Below, piece by piece: positions 6,512-26,498 of a stretch of DNA of 33,972 nucleotides. The notes under the pieces are model-generated. The model saw only the letters and a program-made list of their open reading frames with translations. It did no database searches and had not been told where the DNA came from. Within the stretch, counting starts at the first letter, position 1, and each line of letters opens with the position of its first letter. The position numbers and the translations under genes were made by a program. The DNA is taken from IMG/VR virus record IMGVR_UViG_3300035190_001909, positions 1-33,972 of that record, one strand, 5' to 3'. This DNA is from a virus.

Positions 6512-8355
6512 TATTCCCTGCTTGTAGCGTCTGCCATTGCTAATGAGTAGTGAGATGTAAACGTATCATCAACATAATCACGAATTTTATTTGCTAGAAA
6601 TTTTTCGTCTGTTTGATGATGATTATTTGATACAATATCAAAACTCAATTTAGGTGAAAATGTATTAGTTACGTTATTAATTGGTTTTTGTGTTGGATAA
6701 ATAAGCGGCTGTTGGCTCCTATATTCTGTAAAATGTTCCACTTTTGGGATAATAGTACCCATAATGTTATTAACATCATCTAAAGATATTTTAGGTTTAA
6801 ATCTTCTAAATTTATCACTTACACCACTAAATATCTTGCTAAATACTCCTGAAATTTTTGATGACATCGCTAGGATAGGCTCAACAACATATTGAAAATA
6901 TTTATCCTTAATATAAATAAATATACCCAATAAAAAATCTTTAACTCTATTAAACGCACTATAAATTTCTAAAGATATTTTTGTACCAAATTCACCAAAT
7001 TTTTTAACCCATGATTTTGTTTTTTCGCTTATCCATTTTGAAAACTTTGTACCGAATGCTTCAAATTTTTTAATCCAGCCTATTGTATGATCATAAATCC
7101 AGTTTGAAATTTTTACGCCAATTTCTTCAATCCAAGTTCCAAATTCAGAAAATAATTCTCTTAATTTTGCAACAACTTTTCCAGTAACAGAGTTTTTTCC
7201 ATGAAAATATCCGTAAATATCCTCAGCAAGTAAACCAATAACAGCAATTACCGCGAGCACACCCGCAACAATCAACCACAGAGGTAGGGTCATTAAAATT
7301 TCTGCAATTGTCGCTGTTCCTGCGGCGATTGCTAACGCGCCATCTGCTATTATTAAAGCATTTGTTACAACAATATTTGCAAGTAGTGCTATTTTATTTG
7401 CGTTGAGCGCTAACGTTAAAGCCCCTATAGCACCCACGACCGACCACATTACCACTGGTACTTTATCAAAAGCTTCTGCAATACCATGAATAAAATCCGA
7501 TGTAATTCTTATTAGAGGATTTAGTTTACTCAACGCACTAGAGAACATATCAAGCGCTTGTACTGCTAATTTTGTAAAGCCCGCCTCTCCAATAGTTTTT
7601 TGGATCATATAAATTTGGTTTTTAAAATTTTGAAGTGCAGCGGTAGGACTTTTATAATAAGCTTCTACCCCGTCCTTATATAGTGAATATCCTGAGTCAC
7701 TTATAAGTTCTGCTCGTTGTTCTGCGGTCATTGCTTTTAATTTTGCATCTGCTACTTTTTTGCCACCTAATCTTTTTTCAATTTCCTGCAAAATAATTGT
7801 GTCATCACCGAGCTCTCTTTGTTTTAATTCGGCCATTGAAGCAGTGCCAGCAATAAAATCTGTTACGCCTTTCTGCACTCGCTGCAAAGTTTCTTTGTTT
7901 TTTATATTTGCGCCAGCATAAGCAATTTGTAGTTTTGTATATATATCATAGGACTTATCAACGCTAATATCAGAGAATGACATTTGCTGTTGAAATTTTC
8001 CATACTCTTCCGTTAATGCTGCAATCGACATTTTCGACTTTAAAGCAAATTGAGTGACTTTCTCCAGTTGTTTTGTAGAAATATCTTCTGATTTTGTCGC
8101 ATTTATCAACTGATTTTTAGCATTTTCATATTCAGCATTTACTTTAAATGTGCTTTTAATTCCTTCAAAACCTAAATAACCAGCTAATACAAATTTTAAT
8201 TTTTGCAAAACTCCAGAAAGTTTTTCAACAGATTGAGCATATTTGTCAACATTTTCTCGACCTTTGCTCATACTATTTTCAAAAGCTGAAAGCGTTGACT
8301 TGTCAAATTGAATTGTAAATCTTGCGAAAAAATCCGCTAGTAAATTAGCCGCCAT
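6511..8355 (-). CDS. Tape measure protein
   Basis: The 614-residue protein sets tail length and is the longest in the tail module. The N-terminal third is helical (FTIQFDKSTLSAFENSMSKG, VEKLSGVLQKLKFVLAGYLG) and resembles the start of tape measure proteins. Residues about 300-385 are strongly hydrophobic, with several potential membrane-spanning helices, consistent with the inner-membrane channel role proposed for such proteins. Residues about 407-462 contain a tandem repeat of about 22 residues in which KWISEKTKSWVKKF echoes NWIYDHTIGWIKKF. At this length the tail should be rather short. The start overlaps the frameshifted chaperone stop by 11 bases. Confidence 0.9.
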   Translation of the reverse strand: MAANLLADFFARFTIQFDKSTLSAFENSMSKGRENVDKYAQSVEKLSGVLQKLKFVLAGYLGFEGIKSTFKVNAEYENAKNQLINATKSEDISTKQLEKVTQFALKSKMSIAALTEEYGKFQQQMSFSDISVDKSYDIYTKLQIAYAGANIKNKETLQRVQKGVTDFIAGTASMAELKQRELGDDTIILQEIEKRLGGKKVADAKLKAMTAEQRAELISDSGYSLYKDGVEAYYKSPTAALQNFKNQIYMIQKTIGEAGFTKLAVQALDMFSSALSKLNPLIRITSDFIHGIAEAFDKVPVVMWSVVGAIGALTLALNANKIALLANIVVTNALIIADGALAIAAGTATIAEILMTLPLWLIVAGVLAVIAVIGLLAEDIYGYFHGKNSVTGKVVAKLRELFSEFGTWIEEIGVKISNWIYDHTIGWIKKFEAFGTKFSKWISEKTKSWVKKFGEFGTKISLEIYSAFNRVKDFLLGIFIYIKDKYFQYVVEPILAMSSKISGVFSKIFSGVSDKFRRFKPKISLDDVNNIMGTIIPKVEHFTEYRSQQPLIYPTQKPINNVTNTFSPKLSFDIVSNNHHQTDEKFLANKIRDYVDDTFTSHYSLAMADATSRE

Positions 8356-15660: not shown

Positions 15661-16960
15661 TGCTTATATCCTCACCAATTTGCGGAATATTACCACGTTC
15701 GCGTATTTCTTTTTCGAGTGTATGATCAGGAGTTAAAGCCCCACATTGCACGAGTTCCATTATCGATTTTGCAAATATTTCAAAATCGATTGTATCAATA
15801 TTTCCATGTTTTATTTTGACCATATTTTCCAACGGCCAGTTGTTCATAATATATATTTGTCTGATCAGACTATCGTTAATAACATCTTGTACAACATCTA
15901 AATAATAATTTAATGATTGAGCAAATAGTTTGATTTTAACTTCGGCTAGGTTATAAGTACCACCTGCTTTTTTAGCTCCCATATACATAAAATCAGCTAA
16001 TAATTGAATTGCAATATTTGCTTCGTATCGTTCTATAATTGTATTTGTATCAATTTGTTTTTGTCCTGCCGCTTTAACCAGATCAAATTGAAATTGGCGA
16101 TGATTTGTTCCTTCATATATATTAGAAGGTAACAAAATACCCGCTTGCGTGTTGTTTCTTATATTTACTATTTGGCTTGCTAAATTATCGTATTGTCTTT
16201 TATTTTCATCTGTTTTTTTACTCATAATGCTAGCGGGAGCGTAAACAACAGGAATACCAGCAAGATCTCGCTCAATCGAAATGGCTTCAATTCGTCTTAT
16301 TTTTTTTACGGTTTCGTAACTCTCGTAACAGCCCCGAAGAATAGAAATGCCTTCAGGTAAATCACATTCTGTTGTTGTTCTAAAATGTAATAATCTTTCG
16401 ATGGGAATAAAAACCTCACGCCCACTTGATGGGATCCGCTGGAAAGCGCCAATTGGTGTCCCCGTAGGATCAAACGCCCATTTGATTATTGTTTTTTGTG
16501 ACCTTAAAGGAATTTTACGCGGCGCCCAAAGGCCATCTCGATAATTATGTTTAGAATAAAACCTACGATCAGTATGTAGCCCTAGTCTTTGCTTCCAAAC
16601 AATTTCTAACAAACTGTAACCATGCGGTAAAAATGTAAGCGCATCATTCATTGTCTGAGTAAAAGTTTTTTCCATATCATTGAGCATTTGTTCAACGATT
16701 ATTCCTCTTTTTTCTAAATCATTATCAACGCAATCAGTCGAATATTTCCAAGAAACATTGTAAAATAATTGATTCATGAGAGTCAAAACGCCGTTAATTG
16801 TTGCGTCGTTTTTTCTCATTTCATCAAATATTTCAGCGCCATTTCTGCTACGTAACTCAGGTACAAATTCCTCAAATGTATATCCAGAATTACGTAACGA
16901 ACCAGTGTCTCCAATCTCAATCATTTCATTACTTGTATTACTTAATTTCTTTACGCCCAT
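15653..16960 (-). CDS. Portal protein (DUF935-like)
   Basis: The 435-residue protein matches the Mu-type portal family. Early features are the RNGAEIFDEMRKNDATINGV stretch (about residues 38-57) and FTQTMNDALTFLPHGYSLLE; later come GSSGREVFIPIERLLHFR-like sequence and the conserved DLPEGISILRGCYESYETVK segment (about residues 200-219). Twelve copies would form the DNA channel and bind the terminase. It overlaps the large terminase by 10 bases upstream and the F-like gene by eight bases downstream. Confidence 0.9.
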   Translation of the reverse strand: MGVKKLSNTSNEMIEIGDTGSLRNSGYTFEEFVPELRSRNGAEIFDEMRKNDATINGVLTLMNQLFYNVSWKYSTDCVDNDLEKRGIIVEQMLNDMEKTFTQTMNDALTFLPHGYSLLEIVWKQRLGLHTDRRFYSKHNYRDGLWAPRKIPLRSQKTIIKWAFDPTGTPIGAFQRIPSSGREVFIPIERLLHFRTTTECDLPEGISILRGCYESYETVKKIRRIEAISIERDLAGIPVVYAPASIMSKKTDENKRQYDNLASQIVNIRNNTQAGILLPSNIYEGTNHRQFQFDLVKAAGQKQIDTNTIIERYEANIAIQLLADFMYMGAKKAGGTYNLAEVKIKLFAQSLNYYLDVVQDVINDSLIRQIYIMNNWPLENMVKIKHGNIDTIDFEIFAKSIMELVQCGALTPDHTLEKEIRERGNIPQIGEDISNV

Positions 16961-18408
16961 AGTCTAAATTCACTCTTATAAAGCATATGATCAGCGTTAA
17001 AATCAACATCATTGATATCCTGATCTTCAAAACTTTTTTCTATTAAATACGAAACACCTTGCGTAAATGCGTCCACAATATCATCATTAGGAGCACGAGG
17101 AAAACCTAGTAATTGATTGTTAAACTCACTCCAAAAACTAGCATTTTCTTCTATTGGAAAAAATATTTTATTAGATTCTAAAACTGGAGTTATTGCATTC
17201 GCTCGTGTTATTTTATCTTCACAGGGATGTACTAATTTATACGCCATAACAATATCTTTGATACAATCAGCCACAGCCTCGCCATTTGCTCTTGCTTCAA
17301 TAACAACTGTATTCACTTTATATTTATTATAATTATCTAAAACTGCTTGGACTGTTTCTTTAAAGCCTAACCTTTTATTTATTACATCAATTAAATAAAT
17401 TACTTTTTCTTTGATTCCTAAAACTACGCCAGCAACAAAATCTGAATCTGATTTTTTTGAAAATGGAAAATCCCATGATGATATTATTAAATCAAATTTT
17501 TGCGGCAATTCTGCTGGATAATATTTGTTTTTAAAATGTTCTAATTTAAATAAATTACCCTGTTTTACTCTCGGCTCTTGCTCGTATAACGCTGCCCAAA
17601 TGTGAGGTAATTTTCTTGATTTTGTTTTAAGCATTCTTTCGAGCGAATATCGTTGCGGGTGTAGAACTTCTCCCGCTTTTCTGAAAGGTTCGTCTTTATC
17701 CGCAATAGCTTTAAATTTGATAACTTTCCAATCGTCAGGAAATTTTGCAATTAATCTACCCGCAAGATCATCTTCTGCCCAGCGGGTTAACACAATAATA
17801 ATTCCACTTTCAGGAGACAAACGAGTATCTGCTACTGCATCGAACCATTCGTATTGATCGTCCTTTAATTTTTTTGAATTTGCGTCTTTGGGTGAGCGGA
17901 TAGGGTCATCAATTATTAATAAGTCAGCACCAAAACCCGTTGTTGTCCCATCCATTCCTACGGCTTTGTAATTTGCTTTATTTGTTAGTCCCCAATGTTC
18001 AATTGATTTATTATTATTTGCAATGCCTATATTATATGTATCTTGTATATATTTCTCAAGCACAACATCACGAGCAGCACGCGAAAATTTATTCGCAAGC
18101 TCTTGATTGGCGGAAGCCGCGATCACTTCAAATAGAGGGTTGTTTAATGCACAAAACAAACCAAAACGAACTGTTATGGATTCACTTTTAAGATGACGTG
18201 GTGGCATATTCACGATTAAACGCGGGGATTTTCCAGCTAACAAATCATAATAAAATAAAGTCAATTCTTTAAATAAATAATTTAAATAAGGAGCATCTTT
18301 ATATTTTGGGACAGTATTTTTCACCATTGCCGCAAAATCTTTTCGCTTATGCATTAATTGCAGGCTATCTATTTCTTTTTGAATATCGCTAAAATTATAC
18401 AAAAACAT
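16951..18408 (-). CDS. terL: Large terminase subunit
   Basis: The 485-residue protein is the packaging ATPase and nuclease. Walker A appears as MPPRHLKSE at residues 68-76, with leucine where many relatives have glycine. Walker B is LLIIDD at 163-168. The C-terminal nuclease has the SSWDFPFSKKSDSDF segment (about residues 310-325) with its acidic residues, then VVIEARANG and the late NDDIVDA motif. The GGAGGT ribosome site touches the ATG at 18408, so a TTG two codons later (18402), seven bases from GGAGG, may be the actual start. The small subunit gene lies about 2.4 kb away, an unusual separation. Confidence 0.93.
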   Translation of the reverse strand: MFLYNFSDIQKEIDSLQLMHKRKDFAAMVKNTVPKYKDAPYLNYLFKELTLFYYDLLAGKSPRLIVNMPPRHLKSESITVRFGLFCALNNPLFEVIAASANQELANKFSRAARDVVLEKYIQDTYNIGIANNNKSIEHWGLTNKANYKAVGMDGTTTGFGADLLIIDDPIRSPKDANSKKLKDDQYEWFDAVADTRLSPESGIIIVLTRWAEDDLAGRLIAKFPDDWKVIKFKAIADKDEPFRKAGEVLHPQRYSLERMLKTKSRKLPHIWAALYEQEPRVKQGNLFKLEHFKNKYYPAELPQKFDLIISSWDFPFSKKSDSDFVAGVVLGIKEKVIYLIDVINKRLGFKETVQAVLDNYNKYKVNTVVIEARANGEAVADCIKDIVMAYKLVHPCEDKITRANAITPVLESNKIFFPIEENASFWSEFNNQLLGFPRAPNDDIVDAFTQGVSYLIEKSFEDQDINDVDFNADHMLYKSEFRLWA

Positions 18409-18526
18409 ACCTCCAGCTTTATTTTCAGCATGTTTTCGCAGTAAATAGCAATAGATAATATTTAAAATAATTAATAACTATATTAAAAATACAAATTGCA
18501 TTTATTATTTTTTTTACAATTGGGAG

Positions 18527-18546
18527 TTATCCACAGGTTATCCACA
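18527..18546 (+). promoter_or_regulatory. Two tandem perfect DnaA boxes
   Basis: TTATCCACA occurs at 18527-18535 and again at 18538-18546, both perfect matches to the bacterial DnaA-binding consensus, 11 bases apart from start to start so that both face the same side of the helix. An almost pure A/T stretch (about 18440-18520) lies next to them. This is consistent with a host-DnaA-dependent replication site or a regulatory site. Confidence 0.65.
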
Positions 18547-18608
18547 TCTTTTATTCATGGCTAAGTTAAAGTAACCATGATTTGATTAAAATTACAGCAA
18601 AGTAACAT

Positions 18609-18637
18609 TTGACTTTAGGGGAGAGAAATTTTAAAAT
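18609..18637 (+). promoter_or_regulatory. Sigma70-type promoter for a short RNA
   Basis: TTGACT at 18609-18614 and TAAAAT at 18632-18637, separated by 17 bases, each match five of six consensus positions. Transcription would start near 18644, only about 20 bases ahead of a terminator hairpin. Confidence 0.5.
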
Positions 18638-18643
18638 TTGAAA

Positions 18644-18688
18644 ACTACTAAGCAAGATCACGGGGAGGCAATAGTGCCTCCTTTTTTT
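18644..18688 (+). ncRNA. Candidate short RNA of about 45 nt
   Basis: A promoter-like sequence just upstream and an intrinsic terminator at its 3' end bracket about 45 bases with no room for a meaningful reading frame. The RNA would lie beside the DnaA boxes and upstream of genes on the opposite strand. It could be a replication-related or regulatory RNA, or a leader whose transcription is attenuated before reading antisense into the 18797-19366 gene. Existence and role are inferred from these signals only. Confidence 0.35.
18664..18688 (+). terminator. Rho-independent terminator
   Basis: GGAGGCA (18664-18670) and TGCCTCC (18675-18681) form a perfect seven-base-pair stem with a four-base loop, followed directly by seven T residues. 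The T run is on the plus strand only, so it ends rightward transcription. Confidence 0.8.
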
Positions 18689-18796
18689 ATTTGGGCGTGA
18701 TTATTTCCAGCTTTCGGTCTGTATCAAAAATCAAAAAATAATCACCTTAAATTTTTATTAGCATTAAACTACTCTTAAAACAACTTCATAAATTCA

Positions 18797-20794: not shown

Positions 20795-21307
20795 TCACTC
20801 ATTATCTACCGTTGAACTAGTACAAATTGTTAGTGTATCAGTCCCTTGCTCTCTCGATTTAAGCTCTAATAAGTGCGCTCTCATAGCCTCGATTTGGGCT
20901 AGTTGTTGGTCAAGCGTTAAATTATTGCTCTTATTTTCATCATCTTTTTTAAGGTCAATTTCTTTGCGATCTCGCCACTCATTTGGGAACCTGTTCTTTA
21001 AAAAAAAGATTAACGGAATAGGATTTGCTTTAGCATCGCCTTGCACTTGTAACTTTAGTTGAGTTTCAGCCCAAAGCCTAGATAATCCGTCCGCTACTTC
21101 TTTCGCTTCCTTAAACTCTGGATATAAAACAAGCCAATTGTAAATCGTGGACTTATTCACTCTCAATAGTCCTGCAAAGCTTTCAAAGCTATAGCCAGCC
21201 CCCAAGTGTTCAATGAGAGTTTCGCAATATTCAGGCTGGTACTTTGTTGGATGTCCGCCCGATCTTTTCGGTGCTGGTTTTGTTGTTTCGTTATTACCTA
21301 CATTCAT
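20795..21307 (-). CDS. terS: Small terminase subunit
   Basis: The 170-residue protein has the features of a DNA-recognising terminase subunit. A basic start (KRSGGHPTKYQPEYCETLIE) is followed by a helix-turn-helix near residues 40-60 (FESFAGLLRVNKSTIYNWLV). The central FKEAKEVADGLSRLWAETQL and the NPIPLIFFLKNRFPNEWRDR segment (about residues 97-116) match the TerS oligomerisation core. A helical tail with MRAHLLELKSREQG follows. It overlaps the upstream membrane protein gene by 14 bases. The large subunit lies well downstream, with three unrelated genes between. Confidence 0.87.
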   Translation of the reverse strand: MNVGNNETTKPAPKRSGGHPTKYQPEYCETLIEHLGAGYSFESFAGLLRVNKSTIYNWLVLYPEFKEAKEVADGLSRLWAETQLKLQVQGDAKANPIPLIFFLKNRFPNEWRDRKEIDLKKDDENKSNNLTLDQQLAQIEAMRAHLLELKSREQGTDTLTICTSSTVDNE

Positions 21308-21947
21308 TTAATTTTACCCTTTTCATATTATTACTATCTAATAATTTTTTATTTTCTGGTTCTAATAATTCTAATAATTTATAATAAAATCCTAAAGATA
21401 TATAAAAATCAAATTTATCAGTATATTTTTCATATTCATAAACTAGAAGTTTATAATCTCTAAATTTTATAAATGTTTTTCTATCGTAAAATTGGAGTTT
21501 TGAATCTTGAAGGATCTTTAATTCTGCACATAATAATTTATATATTTGATTTATGTTATCAATATACTCAAGATGAAATTCTCGAAATTCTGGATCTTGG
21601 AGATTGTGATAATTCCATTCATCAAGATTTTCATCATCTAATATTAAAAATTCTCCATCAGAGTATTTAAATAAGTTTTCATTAATATTTATAGAGTTTT
21701 CATATATTGATTCATCAATAATTTTCTTAAAATCTTCATTCTGTTTTTCTTCTTTATGTTTATTAAATTTCATGATTAGGAATGGAACAAAAAAAGCTAT
21801 TGAAGGAGCTATAAGGAATTTTAAATCATGCTTAGATATTAAGATTGCAATACTTAGAATAGCAATCCATAAAAACATAATAATAAGAATATGATTAGCT
21901 ATAAAGTTAATTGTTATATTACTTAATCTATTATATATATTTTTCAT
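21294..21947 (-). CDS. Two-TM membrane protein of unknown function
   Basis: The 217-residue protein begins with two hydrophobic helices, about residues 18-37 (ILIIMFLWIAILSIAILI) and 42-60 (FLIAPSIAFFVPFLIM), followed by a basic loop (KFNKHKEEKQN) that would lie in the cytoplasm. The remaining 150 residues are acidic and helical (LDEWNYHNLQDPEFREFHLE) with no recognised motif. It follows the neighbouring membrane protein gene after 18 bases. The two probably work together in the inner membrane. Superinfection exclusion or defence is possible but unproven. Confidence 0.72.
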   Translation of the reverse strand: MKNIYNRLSNITINFIANHILIIMFLWIAILSIAILISKHDLKFLIAPSIAFFVPFLIMKFNKHKEEKQNEDFKKIIDESIYENSININENLFKYSDGEFLILDDENLDEWNYHNLQDPEFREFHLEYIDNINQIYKLLCAELKILQDSKLQFYDRKTFIKFRDYKLLVYEYEKYTDKFDFYISLGFYYKLLELLEPENKKLLDSNNMKRVKLNECR

Positions 21948-21965: not shown

Positions 21966-22742
21966 TTACTTCTTAACTAAAAAAGCTGTTTTTATTCCGT
22001 TAAATTCATCATAAAAAATGTGTATTATTTCGCAATTTTTACCACCCCAATTAATATTAGATCCAACTTTTGGTTGATTTGTTCCTAGATTATCTATTGG
22101 TACTAAATAATAATCATCATCTCTTTTCTTTCCTAAATACTTTAAATATTCAGTATTTGCATTATCATGAGTTCTCCAATGAGAATCTAATAACTGCCTT
22201 TCTTTGTCTCTTTCTCTTATAACATCATCTTTTGACTTAATAATATTATTTTTTTCAATCTCAAGTTGTTTTATTTTATCTTGAATTAATTTTATTTTTT
22301 TCTTTGCCGATTTCAATGATAATTCATTATTGTTTGTATATATCTCAACTACAATTGGTTTAATATATTTAAGATAAACAAATATAAATAACATGGAATA
22401 ACAGAAAGGAATAAACCAATAAGCTTGACCTAATAATGTATAATTTGATTGTTCAAACATATTAAAATATTTGAATATTTCTACTGTTAAATCAGGTATT
22501 TTATTTTCATGAAAATAGGCTAAAATCTTTTCTATTCTATCACTTGGATTTTCAATATCACCTAATATAAAAGCGGCGAAAGCTTTCCAGTTATAAATTA
22601 TAAAGAAAAACGCAAACGATCTCCAAAGTGGATCACTGGCTCTGTCTTCTAGGAACTTTAGGATAAACCCGCCAAGTGTTTTAGAAATTTTATCATTCTT
22701 TTTTGTTGTTTCTTCTTTTTCTGTTTTAACTGGTTTATTCAT
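21966..22742 (-). CDS. Membrane protein with coiled coil and C-terminal domain
   Basis: The 258-residue protein has a charged N-terminus, a first hydrophobic helix near residues 42-60 (RSFAFFFIIYNWKAFAAFIL), a second near 107-125 (FIPFCYSMLFIFVYLKYI), then a long coiled coil (KIKLIQDKIKQLEIEKNN) and a compact C-terminal domain ending VGSNINWGGKNCEI ... AFLVKK. The layout, membrane anchor plus coil plus small soluble sensor-like domain, resembles membrane-linked defence or exclusion proteins in general form only. It starts just downstream of the candidate iteron origin and 18 bases precede the next gene. Confidence 0.74.
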   Translation of the reverse strand: MNKPVKTEKEETTKKNDKISKTLGGFILKFLEDRASDPLWRSFAFFFIIYNWKAFAAFILGDIENPSDRIEKILAYFHENKIPDLTVEIFKYFNMFEQSNYTLLGQAYWFIPFCYSMLFIFVYLKYIKPIVVEIYTNNNELSLKSAKKKIKLIQDKIKQLEIEKNNIIKSKDDVIRERDKERQLLDSHWRTHDNANTEYLKYLGKKRDDDYYLVPIDNLGTNQPKVGSNINWGGKNCEIIHIFYDEFNGIKTAFLVKK

Positions 22743-23071
22743 TTTTTGCCCTCATTTTAATCAAAACCCATTAAAAAATCATTCCTTCTGTATATTCTGT
22801 GCTAGATCTGTGCTTCTTCTGTGCTAAAACTTTTCTTACTCTCTGTTATACAATTCTCATTTAGCACATATTATACAGAATATATCATCAAAATTAATAT
22901 AAAAAAAAATTAGCATATGAACACGCCCGAAAACGTGTAAATGCGTGTGTTGTAAATTCTCCGTAGGTATTTTGTCGATTTCTTCTGTTCTTCTGTTCTA
23001 ATGGGTATTTGTTCAACTGAGAGTAATAAATCTTTAGCACAGTTCTTCTGTGCTTCTTCTGTGCTTCTGTG
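22743..23071. repeat. Iteron and dyad region, candidate replication origin
   Basis: Five exact copies of TTCTGTGCT lie at 22795-22803, 22817-22825, 23046-23054, 23057-23065 and 23065-23073, with a near copy at 22806-22814 that gives an 11-base spacing. Two TTCTGTTCT copies lie at 22983-22999. Inverted pairs include TGTGCTAAA/TTTAGCACA (22820-22828 and 22860-22868), nested inside ATATTCTGT/ACAGAATAT (22792-22800 and 22875-22883), and a 10-base pair TTTAGCACAG/CTGTGCTAAA at 23033-23042 and 23067-23076. An A/T-rich block follows at about 22890-22915. The location right behind the helicase gene fits an origin. An 85-codon frame across it is spurious in my view. Confidence 0.6.
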
Positions 23072-24598
23072 CTAAACATAGGCCATCGCTTTGTCTGAAA
23101 TTTCGATATTGAAATTATAGTAACGCTTGCCAGAATACGGATAAGAAGCAACTTTTAATTTGGACTTAAGCTTTATACCGAACACACGTTTTGAATCGCT
23201 GTAAAGGCCGTTTAATCTGCAAAAATGGCAATAGTCAGCGTAAACATTATTGACCTCAGATTTTTTATCTCCGACAACAAGATTTTTTTCTTCGATCCAT
23301 TGTTCGACCGAGTTTTTATCTCTGTTGGATTCTTGTTGTTCCTTTATTTCTTTTCTGCAAGTCGCAATAAAAGGTTTGTCCAAGGCTTCGTCCACATCTC
23401 GCCAGATAGCTAGATAATCAATTTTATTAATCGTGTCCCAATCGCAATTGCCATGTATTTCTATCTCGTAAAATCGGCGCATCCCAGTTTCGTCTCTGAT
23501 TAATAAAGAAACGGGCTTATTGGACGTTCCGATAAACGTACAATTATTTTGTACACGCATCATATTGTGAGAATAAAGTAACCGAAACTTAATAAAATCG
23601 GCTGTAATGCGTTCTTTAATTTCCTCGATATCTGCTTTTGTTGCGCCTTTCATCTCGTCAAAAAACATGATGTAATTTGACTCAAAAAATTTCGAGTTTC
23701 TGTCATCAATTAAATCCGTGAACTTACCCTCGATCCATAGGCCGTCTAGTGGGCTGAGAAGTTTTTTAATAGCTTCCGATTTCCCAATGCCTTGAGAGCC
23801 GTAAATAATGGGCATGAGATGATCATAAACTTTAAGACCAAATATTTTGCGCTTTGTCTGCCAAATAAAATGCCTAAAAATCATGTCAGCAATAAAGTCA
23901 TATTTACCAAGTAAAGCCGTGATAAATTTCTCCATATTACCGTTTAAATCTTGGGTGTAAGTAAGTTTTTCAATTATCATAATACGAATCTTTCTTTGTT
24001 CCGAGGAAATTTTTAAATCTAGTGCATTGCGTAAAACTTGAAGATTAATTCGGGTTTTTTCTGGTTTGTTTGAAATAAAGTCACAATTCAGGGTTGCAAC
24101 TAAATCATCAAAGGGAATTTTTTCGCCTTCCATGTGAAATTCATTGCAAGATTTCATTTGAATTTTTCTCGAATTAAACCATACATCTAGCCATCGTCTT
24201 GGGTCGTTTTCGATAATAATATTATTAATTTCTGACTTAGCTTCTAATTGCCACGAATCATCATCTGTTTCTTCACGATGTAGCGACGGTTCCGAAATAA
24301 AATTGCATTCGGATTTCCACGCAATAATTGCTTCGTTAGCGGTTTTAGAGTCTGTTTTTTGCGGCTTTCTTATATTAATACAAGCGTTTTTTAAGTTTGT
24401 ATATTTAATAAGTTTACAAATTTTATTGCGGTAATCAATTATTTTATAATATCTCTCACCATCGCATAAGTATTCTTTTTCTAACATCGCTATTATTTCA
24501 AGAAAAATATCGTTATCTCTTAATGCGTTTATTTGTCTTTTTTTAATATTTTGTTTCTGAGATTCTTTCAAAATATTAATAAGATTATTATCGCTCAT
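23072..24598 (-). CDS. VirE-like replication helicase/primase-type ATPase
   Basis: The 508-residue protein carries a P-loop ATPase of the VirE/D5 type. Walker A, IYGSQGIGKSEA, lies near residues 263-274, Walker B is NYIMFFDEM (about 304-312), and a sensor-like IGTSNKPVSLLIRDETGMRR segment follows (about 356-375), a hallmark of the family. The N-terminal 200 residues may be a linker or primase-like domain but show no clear motif. Such proteins act in phage genome replication. The start overlaps the preceding small gene as ATGA. Its stop lies inside the iteron block, so origin and gene adjoin. Confidence 0.88.
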   Translation of the reverse strand: MSDNNLINILKESQKQNIKKRQINALRDNDIFLEIIAMLEKEYLCDGERYYKIIDYRNKICKLIKYTNLKNACINIRKPQKTDSKTANEAIIAWKSECNFISEPSLHREETDDDSWQLEAKSEINNIIIENDPRRWLDVWFNSRKIQMKSCNEFHMEGEKIPFDDLVATLNCDFISNKPEKTRINLQVLRNALDLKISSEQRKIRIMIIEKLTYTQDLNGNMEKFITALLGKYDFIADMIFRHFIWQTKRKIFGLKVYDHLMPIIYGSQGIGKSEAIKKLLSPLDGLWIEGKFTDLIDDRNSKFFESNYIMFFDEMKGATKADIEEIKERITADFIKFRLLYSHNMMRVQNNCTFIGTSNKPVSLLIRDETGMRRFYEIEIHGNCDWDTINKIDYLAIWRDVDEALDKPFIATCRKEIKEQQESNRDKNSVEQWIEEKNLVVGDKKSEVNNVYADYCHFCRLNGLYSDSKRVFGIKLKSKLKVASYPYSGKRYYNFNIEISDKAMAYV

Positions 24599-25446: not shown

Positions 25447-25686
25447 TTATCTCCTATTTTTTAATTTAGATATAGTTTTGTAGAAACGTCTGACTTTTCT
25501 TCGTTTATAGTACTCGTTAAGGCTTTTATAAATAATTTTATAATCTTTATAATTAAAAACTATTGAAGTGATAAATAAACTTATAATTGCTATAAAAATA
25601 GCTTTATATATCGTAAGTTCAAAGTGAAATAACGATATACACATACTCAAACTTAGAAGTAAAATTGATTTTAAAATTCTTACCAT
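25447..25686 (-). CDS. Small membrane protein
   Basis: A 79-residue protein with two hydrophobic segments, about residues 5-21 (LKSILLLSLSMCISLFHF) and 27-45 (AIFIAIISLFITSIVF), followed by a strongly basic tail (NEYYKRRKVRRFYKT). The basic tail would stay in the cytoplasm. It shares one base with the RNA ligase stop (TAATG), so it is coupled to that gene. Role unknown. Confidence 0.65.
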   Translation of the reverse strand: MVRILKSILLLSLSMCISLFHFELTIYKAIFIAIISLFITSIVFNYKDYKIIYKSLNEYYKRRKVRRFYKTISKLKNRR

Positions 25687-26498
25687 TAGATATTTCCATT
25701 ATAATTGACGGCTATAAATTCCTTTAAAAAAATACAAACATCTTTTTTTATTTTGAATTTATTATCTTCAAATTTTTCTTTAGATATTTGATTTTCTTCT
25801 ATTAAGTCATTTATATAATCATGTGCAATATCTGGAATAGTTCGAGGAAAGTTTTTTAAATATCTTTCATCTTTTGATAGCAATTTTTCAAGCCTTATTG
25901 GCTGTAATAGATCTTCGTACACATCGCTTATTGTCTTGGGTTTTTTATCAGTACCCGAACGCCATCTTGTTTCTTCTGGATCAAAAACTTTTTTATATCT
26001 GGTGCCATCAATATCTACGACAACGCCTTCAACACGCATAAAACCATTAACTAATTTTGATCCATTTTCTTTTAAGTCATTCATTGTTTCATATATTTTA
26101 TCAAAATTTAAATCACCATTATATAAAACTGGAACAATAGAAGTCCTTGGCGGTAAAGGTCTTTCTGTTGGGAATTGCCACCAATTAAATAATACAAACA
26201 TGCGTTCGTTAATTCCTTCGCTCGAATTAATTCCATGCCCTATCCACTCGCCAAAATGATGTCCCTCTCCTAATTTTTCAATGAATTCTTGTTTATTTTC
26301 ATACACAAATTTAGCAAATCCATAGTTGTCATCAATTGGGGTTATCCAACGAGTACGAGAGCCACATTTTAAATCTAGCTTTCCTGTATTTTTATCTAAA
26401 TAAATATAAACTTGTGCATTTGTACCGTGTAGTTTTTGCGTAATCGACATTTTAGCTTTATGTAAAGCCTGTATTTTAGGGAATGATTTAAAATCCAT
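25686..26498 (-). CDS. RNA ligase (Rnl2-like)
   Basis: The 270-residue protein has all the core nucleotidyltransferase motifs of phage RNA ligases: motif I as KLHGTN with the AMP-accepting lysine K22, a FGEWIGHGI motif III (residues 81-89), EGVVV motif IV (156-160) and the YKKVF motif V (167-171). It would rejoin broken RNA, most likely tRNA or rRNA cut by host defence nucleases. The ligase domain takes nearly the whole length, with a helical C-terminal tail. It lies in the early leftward block. Reaction is established for the family; the actual substrate is inferred. Confidence 0.86.
   Translation of the reverse strand: MDFKSFPKIQALHKAKMSITQKLHGTNAQVYIYLDKNTGKLDLKCGSRTRWITPIDDNYGFAKFVYENKQEFIEKLGEGHHFGEWIGHGINSSEGINERMFVLFNWWQFPTERPLPPRTSIVPVLYNGDLNFDKIYETMNDLKENGSKLVNGFMRVEGVVVDIDGTRYKKVFDPEETRWRSGTDKKPKTISDVYEDLLQPIRLEKLLSKDERYLKNFPRTIPDIAHDYINDLIEENQISKEKFEDNKFKIKKDVCIFLKEFIAVNYNGNI

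Follow-up and report, generated by a model that had tools for sequence, protein, structure and literature searches.

The stretch of DNA analysed here (the window), a virus record of 33,972 bp, has a GC content of about 30%, and in it a noncoding gap of 329 bp (22743-23071) separates two minus-strand genes, one at 21966-22742 and the other, at 23072-24598, encoding a VapE/SF3 (AAA+) helicase of 508 aa. We propose the gap as a whole as a replication origin and the helicase as its initiator. The window also encodes the large and small terminase, portal, head protease, major head protein, tail sheath, tape measure and endolysin of a contractile-tailed phage, together with RecE- and RecT-like recombination proteins and a single-stranded DNA-binding protein that was recognised by eye. 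Since the large terminase, portal, major head protein, sheath, tape measure and endolysin are all present, the window is a phage and not a PICI satellite. The small (20795-21307) and large (16951-18408) terminase genes, which are usually adjacent, are separated here by 2.4 kb holding three small ORFs and noncoding stretches, and a phage RNA ligase gene (25686-26498; PF09414, phrog_548) is found beside the replication genes.

The gap carries a repeat array whose parts agree with the sequence-only reading of this locus: five exact repeats, a single near copy, two copies of a related word and 11-base spacing of the first three repeats. The exact word, TTCTGTGCT, occurs on the plus strand at 22795, 22817, 23046, 23057 and 23065. 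Together with the near copy, ATCTGTGCT at 22806, the copies at 22795 and 22817 form a distal plus-strand set (22795-22825) with a period of 11, and the remaining three form a plus-strand set at the helicase stop codon (23046-23073), the outermost repeat (23065-23073) overlapping the stop codon itself (23072-23074). Two variant iterons, TTCTGTTCT, start at 22983 and 22991 (22983-22999, plus strand). Read along the helicase strand, the array begins with three copies of AGCACAGAA from the stop codon on, at spacings of 8 and 11. Next come an inverted partial copy and the two variants, then a CG-containing spacer and the AT-only tract. A second inverted partial copy follows, and the array closes with three further iteron copies (one imperfect) at a period of 11. 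The 7-, 8- and 9-mer counts observed in the gap were reached by none of 300 dinucleotide shuffles (non-overlapping, both strands), and five copies of any 9-mer appeared in one of 2000 gap shuffles when overlapping copies were counted on one strand. No exact TTCTGTGCT lies outside the gap in the whole 34-kb window, and the one-mismatch copies elsewhere in it are scattered, with no second cluster.

Several smaller elements are embedded in a large imperfect dyad that the sequence-only reading had missed. Its arms of about 75 bp (left, 22819-22894; right, 22969-23042, including an inverted AGCACAG at 23036-23042) lie around the AT-rich tract and align with a score of 47, compared with a maximum of 27 in 1000 shuffles. 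The inverted pairs reported earlier are parts of this dyad. Two of them are nested and exact (22791-22800 with 22875-22884, and 22820-22828 with 22860-22868); the inverted repeat around the helicase stop codon is a pair (23030-23042 with 23067-23079) complementary at 12 of 13 positions. For the dyad, the fold as single-stranded DNA has a z of -3.3. The A/T-rich tract noted beside the repeats corresponds to an A/T-only stretch at 22890-22912, a candidate melting site, and the 50 bp from 22868 rank at the 99.5th percentile of low duplex stability within the window. The spacer holds a CG-containing inverted repeat, ACACGC-N16-GCGTGT (22921-22948), which is not significant alone, as about seven of 57 helicase-side gaps are expected to contain such a stem by chance. 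The motif GAGAGTAA, present in both dyad arms, is found in five of the 57 gaps where 0.6 would be expected, a number too small to support a conclusion. A second element shared between loci consists of alternating CG/TA words such as TATACGCG, often palindromic, which occur in 13 of the 57 gaps against 0.5 expected and sit 150-290 bp past the helicase stop codon in loci L137, L149, L163, L073 and others; their counterpart in the window is weak and consists of the ACACGC-N16-GCGTGT repeat.

The helicase protein matches the Pfam VapE-like domain (PF05272, 5.5e-25), of which we take "VirE-like", the name used in the sequence-only reading, to be the older form. By sequence, one protein of known structure was found, 7pds (phmmer 6.9e-13, residues 184-383), entitled 'The structure of PriRep1 with dsDNA', a Rep helicase of a staphylococcal pathogenicity island. 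The same entry also ranks first by fold (VIA Z 19.4 over 214 aligned residues, with an rmsd of 2.9; Foldseek E 1e-9), ahead of the NrS-1 and papillomavirus E1 helicases and then the SaPI5 primase-helicase (7ola, Z 13.9); these fold matches cover the AAA+ core only, the one part in which the model is confident. The C-terminal part is modelled at low confidence (pLDDT 40-60) and aligns poorly with other helicases, and folding the C-terminal domain alone gave an unusable model (mean pLDDT 39.5). Residues 1-200 match no primase family, and the match of the protein to TIGR01613 (P4-family) falls far under the cut-off of that model.

To place the array in its family, we examined the DNA that follows related helicase genes. 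Ten gaps 3' of the helicase gene, from related phage and satellite loci, were tested individually, and seven contain a clear array. The repeated word differs from one to the next: TGCTACA in Javan257, TGCAACA in phiSP15-1, TGGGACA in JB1P3, GGAACAAC in StAB, GTAACAACC in APSE-7, CTGCAACA in FutureBee and TGATGTAACA in Javan399. An eighth, AB1, is weak, and the gaps of BX788P2 and NatCom_27009 gave no array by the same test; P2559Y has no gap after its helicase gene. These seven phages and satellites resemble the window in having a VapE helicase domain followed by an iteron array, but differ in their iteron words, and their helicases are only about 20-25% identical to that of the window. In the APSE-7 record, a putative origin is annotated at another place, ahead of the helicase gene.

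A wider survey covered the loci returned by two scans, reduced to helicases of less than 60% identity (45 non-redundant loci). The most frequent 7-mer on either strand, counted without overlap, was compared with 100 dinucleotide shuffles, and an array was called significant when no shuffle reached its count. By this measure, 27 of the 45 loci have a significant array within the first 400 bp past the stop codon (11 of 21 viral and 16 of 24 genome loci), whereas five control stretches of the same loci have 0 or 1 array each. Because stretches inside genes could be unfair controls, we also compared noncoding gaps of at least 120 bp only; arrays were present in 17 of the 32 gaps beside the helicase gene and in none of the 50 others. 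Applied to P4 as a positive control, the same statistic picks out the iterons annotated as 'ori type 1' that directly follow alpha. The genome scan used a subfamily alignment (A2) that did not include the window protein, so its result applies to the family as a whole and not to close relatives of the window. The survey shows that repeat arrays directly 3' of the gene are a feature of the VapE-type helicase family.

The iteron words differ between loci and yet appear to share a core. Repeated 7-mers with ACA (or TGT on the other strand) are found in 21 of 34 significant arrays, the window included, against 18% expected from shuffles, and the next trinucleotide, AAC, is far weaker. The binomial p of 2e-8 for this enrichment is optimistic, because words of related helicases were treated as independent and the best of 32 trinucleotides was picked. 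Both GGTGAACA of P4 and AGCACAG of the window agree with the ACA pattern. The words themselves thus give a lead, though not a proof, that family iterons may consist of a variable part and a common ACA.

We found no close relative covering the region in a DNA search of phages, in searches of IMG/VR and GTDB genomes with helicase peptides, or with a degenerate Walker A motif. One contig, G001, is identical to the window over their overlap and ends at window position 21,612, short of the array region. A circular genome was considered and set aside: there is no terminal repeat, and 115 bases of G001 beyond the window start are absent from the window. The tandem iteron word was found in three unrelated IMG/VR contigs. 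In L004 the match encodes part of a small-terminase-like protein and was taken as chance. In L103 (9990-10040), the word lies together with more copies, among them several of GCACAGAA, inside a gene that by eye resembles a phage replication-initiator gene. L102, an otherwise unrelated phage contig, carries a noncoding array of TTCTGTGCTGT with a period of 11 (7980-8060), nearly the iteron of the window, and no initiator gene was recognised near it on the stretch examined. No link of L102 or L103 to the window was established.

Comparable arrangements have been described for SaPI/PICI and SCCmec elements. The SaPI Rep protein recognises iterons directly downstream of its own gene through its C-terminal domain, and SCCmec Cch2 likewise uses its C-terminal domain to bind direct repeats, which follow its gene directly and form a putative origin (PMC7581432). 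PICI origins lie directly 3' of rep and have an iteron set on each side of an AT-rich region, and plasmids carrying rep and ori are able to replicate (PMC6092414). The window resembles the SaPI/PICI rep-ori module in its initiator, an AAA+/SF3 helicase related to 7pds, in the position of its array directly 3' of the helicase gene with the first repeat on the stop codon, and in the two sets (22795-22825 and 23046-23073) that flank the A/T tract (22890-22912), although variant and inverted copies also lie between them. It differs in that the module belongs to a phage that has head, tail and terminase genes of its own, in its iteron, as AGCACAGAA is not among the SaPI/PICI iterons that we met, in the large dyad between the iteron sets, and in the divergent C-terminal part of the helicase. 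Cch2 has a different iteron, AAGTG, in three copies and in a chromosomal cassette. P4 also carries iterons directly 3' of its helicase gene (alpha) in both orientations, the crr site, and its iteron GGTGAACA also ends in ACA. However, a further iteron cluster lies at a distant origin in P4, whereas one cluster only was found in the window, and alpha carries a primase part, whereas no primase family was matched in residues 1-200 of the window helicase. Lambda-type origins have their iterons inside the initiator gene; the array of the window is 3' of the gene and overlaps its stop codon only.

Given these likenesses, we consider it very probable that the gap at 22743-23071 is a SaPI/PICI-type origin for a self-loading helicase in a contractile-tailed phage. 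In this model, the helicase encoded by the minus-strand gene just upstream would recognise the AGCACAGAA iterons, of which the first overlaps the stop codon of that gene, and would form hexamers on the sets that flank the AT-rich tract. It would then open the tract and load itself, with forks leaving in both directions. We infer that the helicase binds the iterons, as the C-terminal domain does in studied relatives, that melting starts in the A/T tract and that replication starts in the gap. An iteron origin, as the sequence-only reading had proposed, served by the neighbouring helicase, is the best-supported reading because arrays recur at the same position across the helicase family and studied members recognise iterons directly 3' of their own gene, as P4 does in its crr. 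The layout is of the SaPI/PICI type rather than the generic iteron layout first suggested. Several points count against an origin here. The searches gave no relative in which conservation of the iteron word would show, the C-terminal part of the helicase aligns poorly with its counterparts, and the GC skew changes sign near 29.5 kb, where gene direction changes, and not at the gap.

A serious alternative is suggested by P4, in which the iterons that directly follow alpha make up crr, a required cis site, and the annotated origin lies 4.5 kb away. By analogy, the array of the window could be bound by the helicase and be required in cis or regulate initiation while the strands open elsewhere, possibly in the AT-rich stretch at 18442-18546. 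Two perfect tandem DnaA boxes, TTATCCACA, lie there at 18527-18535 and 18538-18546, 11 bp apart and 4.3 kb from the array, in a 388-bp noncoding gap (18409-18796) next to the large terminase gene, and adjoin a 50-bp stretch that is among the least stable in the window (99.96th percentile); the candidate origin has no match to TTWTNCACA within 22743-23080. However, the distant origin of P4 carries the same iterons, whereas the window has no second cluster of TTCTGTGCT, the array gap, like SaPI/PICI origins, includes an AT-rich tract flanked by the iteron sets, and nothing links the DnaA-box region to the phage helicase. We therefore regard an accessory role for the array as rather unlikely, while the DnaA-box site at 18409-18796 may be an alternative start, a second origin or an accessory site. 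The DnaA boxes are also present in contig G001. In the same gap, on the plus strand, 18609-18691 holds a promoter-like site and a strong terminator-like stem with a T-run and no gene between them, possibly a short RNA, for which Rfam gave no match.

Two further explanations would give the array no part in replication, and we think both very improbable. Terminase binding sites can be short repeats, and the small terminase gene (20795-21307) lies about 1.5 kb downstream, so the array could be a packaging site (pac or cosB) bound by that subunit; yet arrays follow the helicase gene in phages and satellites whose downstream genes differ, and none of 50 other intergenic gaps of those loci holds a significant one. 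Alternatively, the gap, which separates two genes and has a terminator-like stem on the plus strand (23036-23054), could be an operator or terminator region controlling the flanking genes. That stem points against the direction of both genes, an array of mixed orientation with a dyad is a poor fit to a terminator, and no Rfam or other RNA family was found in the gap.

On the best reading, then, this is a known kind of origin, and the window adds another member to the SaPI/PICI type. A phage without known close relatives thereby gains a concrete candidate pair of origin and initiator, and the survey indicates that, in many phages with VapE helicases, the place to find the origin is immediately downstream of the helicase gene. 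The arrays of full-length phages (phiSP15-1, FutureBee, StAB, APSE-7 and Javan399) suggest, from their sequences, that the PICI-type layout is more widespread than satellites, and such a spread is relevant to the source of satellite replicons and to how the initiators of phages and satellites are kept from mixing. It is conceivable, and to us about evenly balanced, that this type of origin is not special to satellites and that VapE-type helicases of tailed phages generally carry their own origin directly 3', with iterons in which a variable part sets specificity and a shared ACA is recognised through a common contact. If this is true, the DNA specificity of the whole initiator family could be read from sequence.
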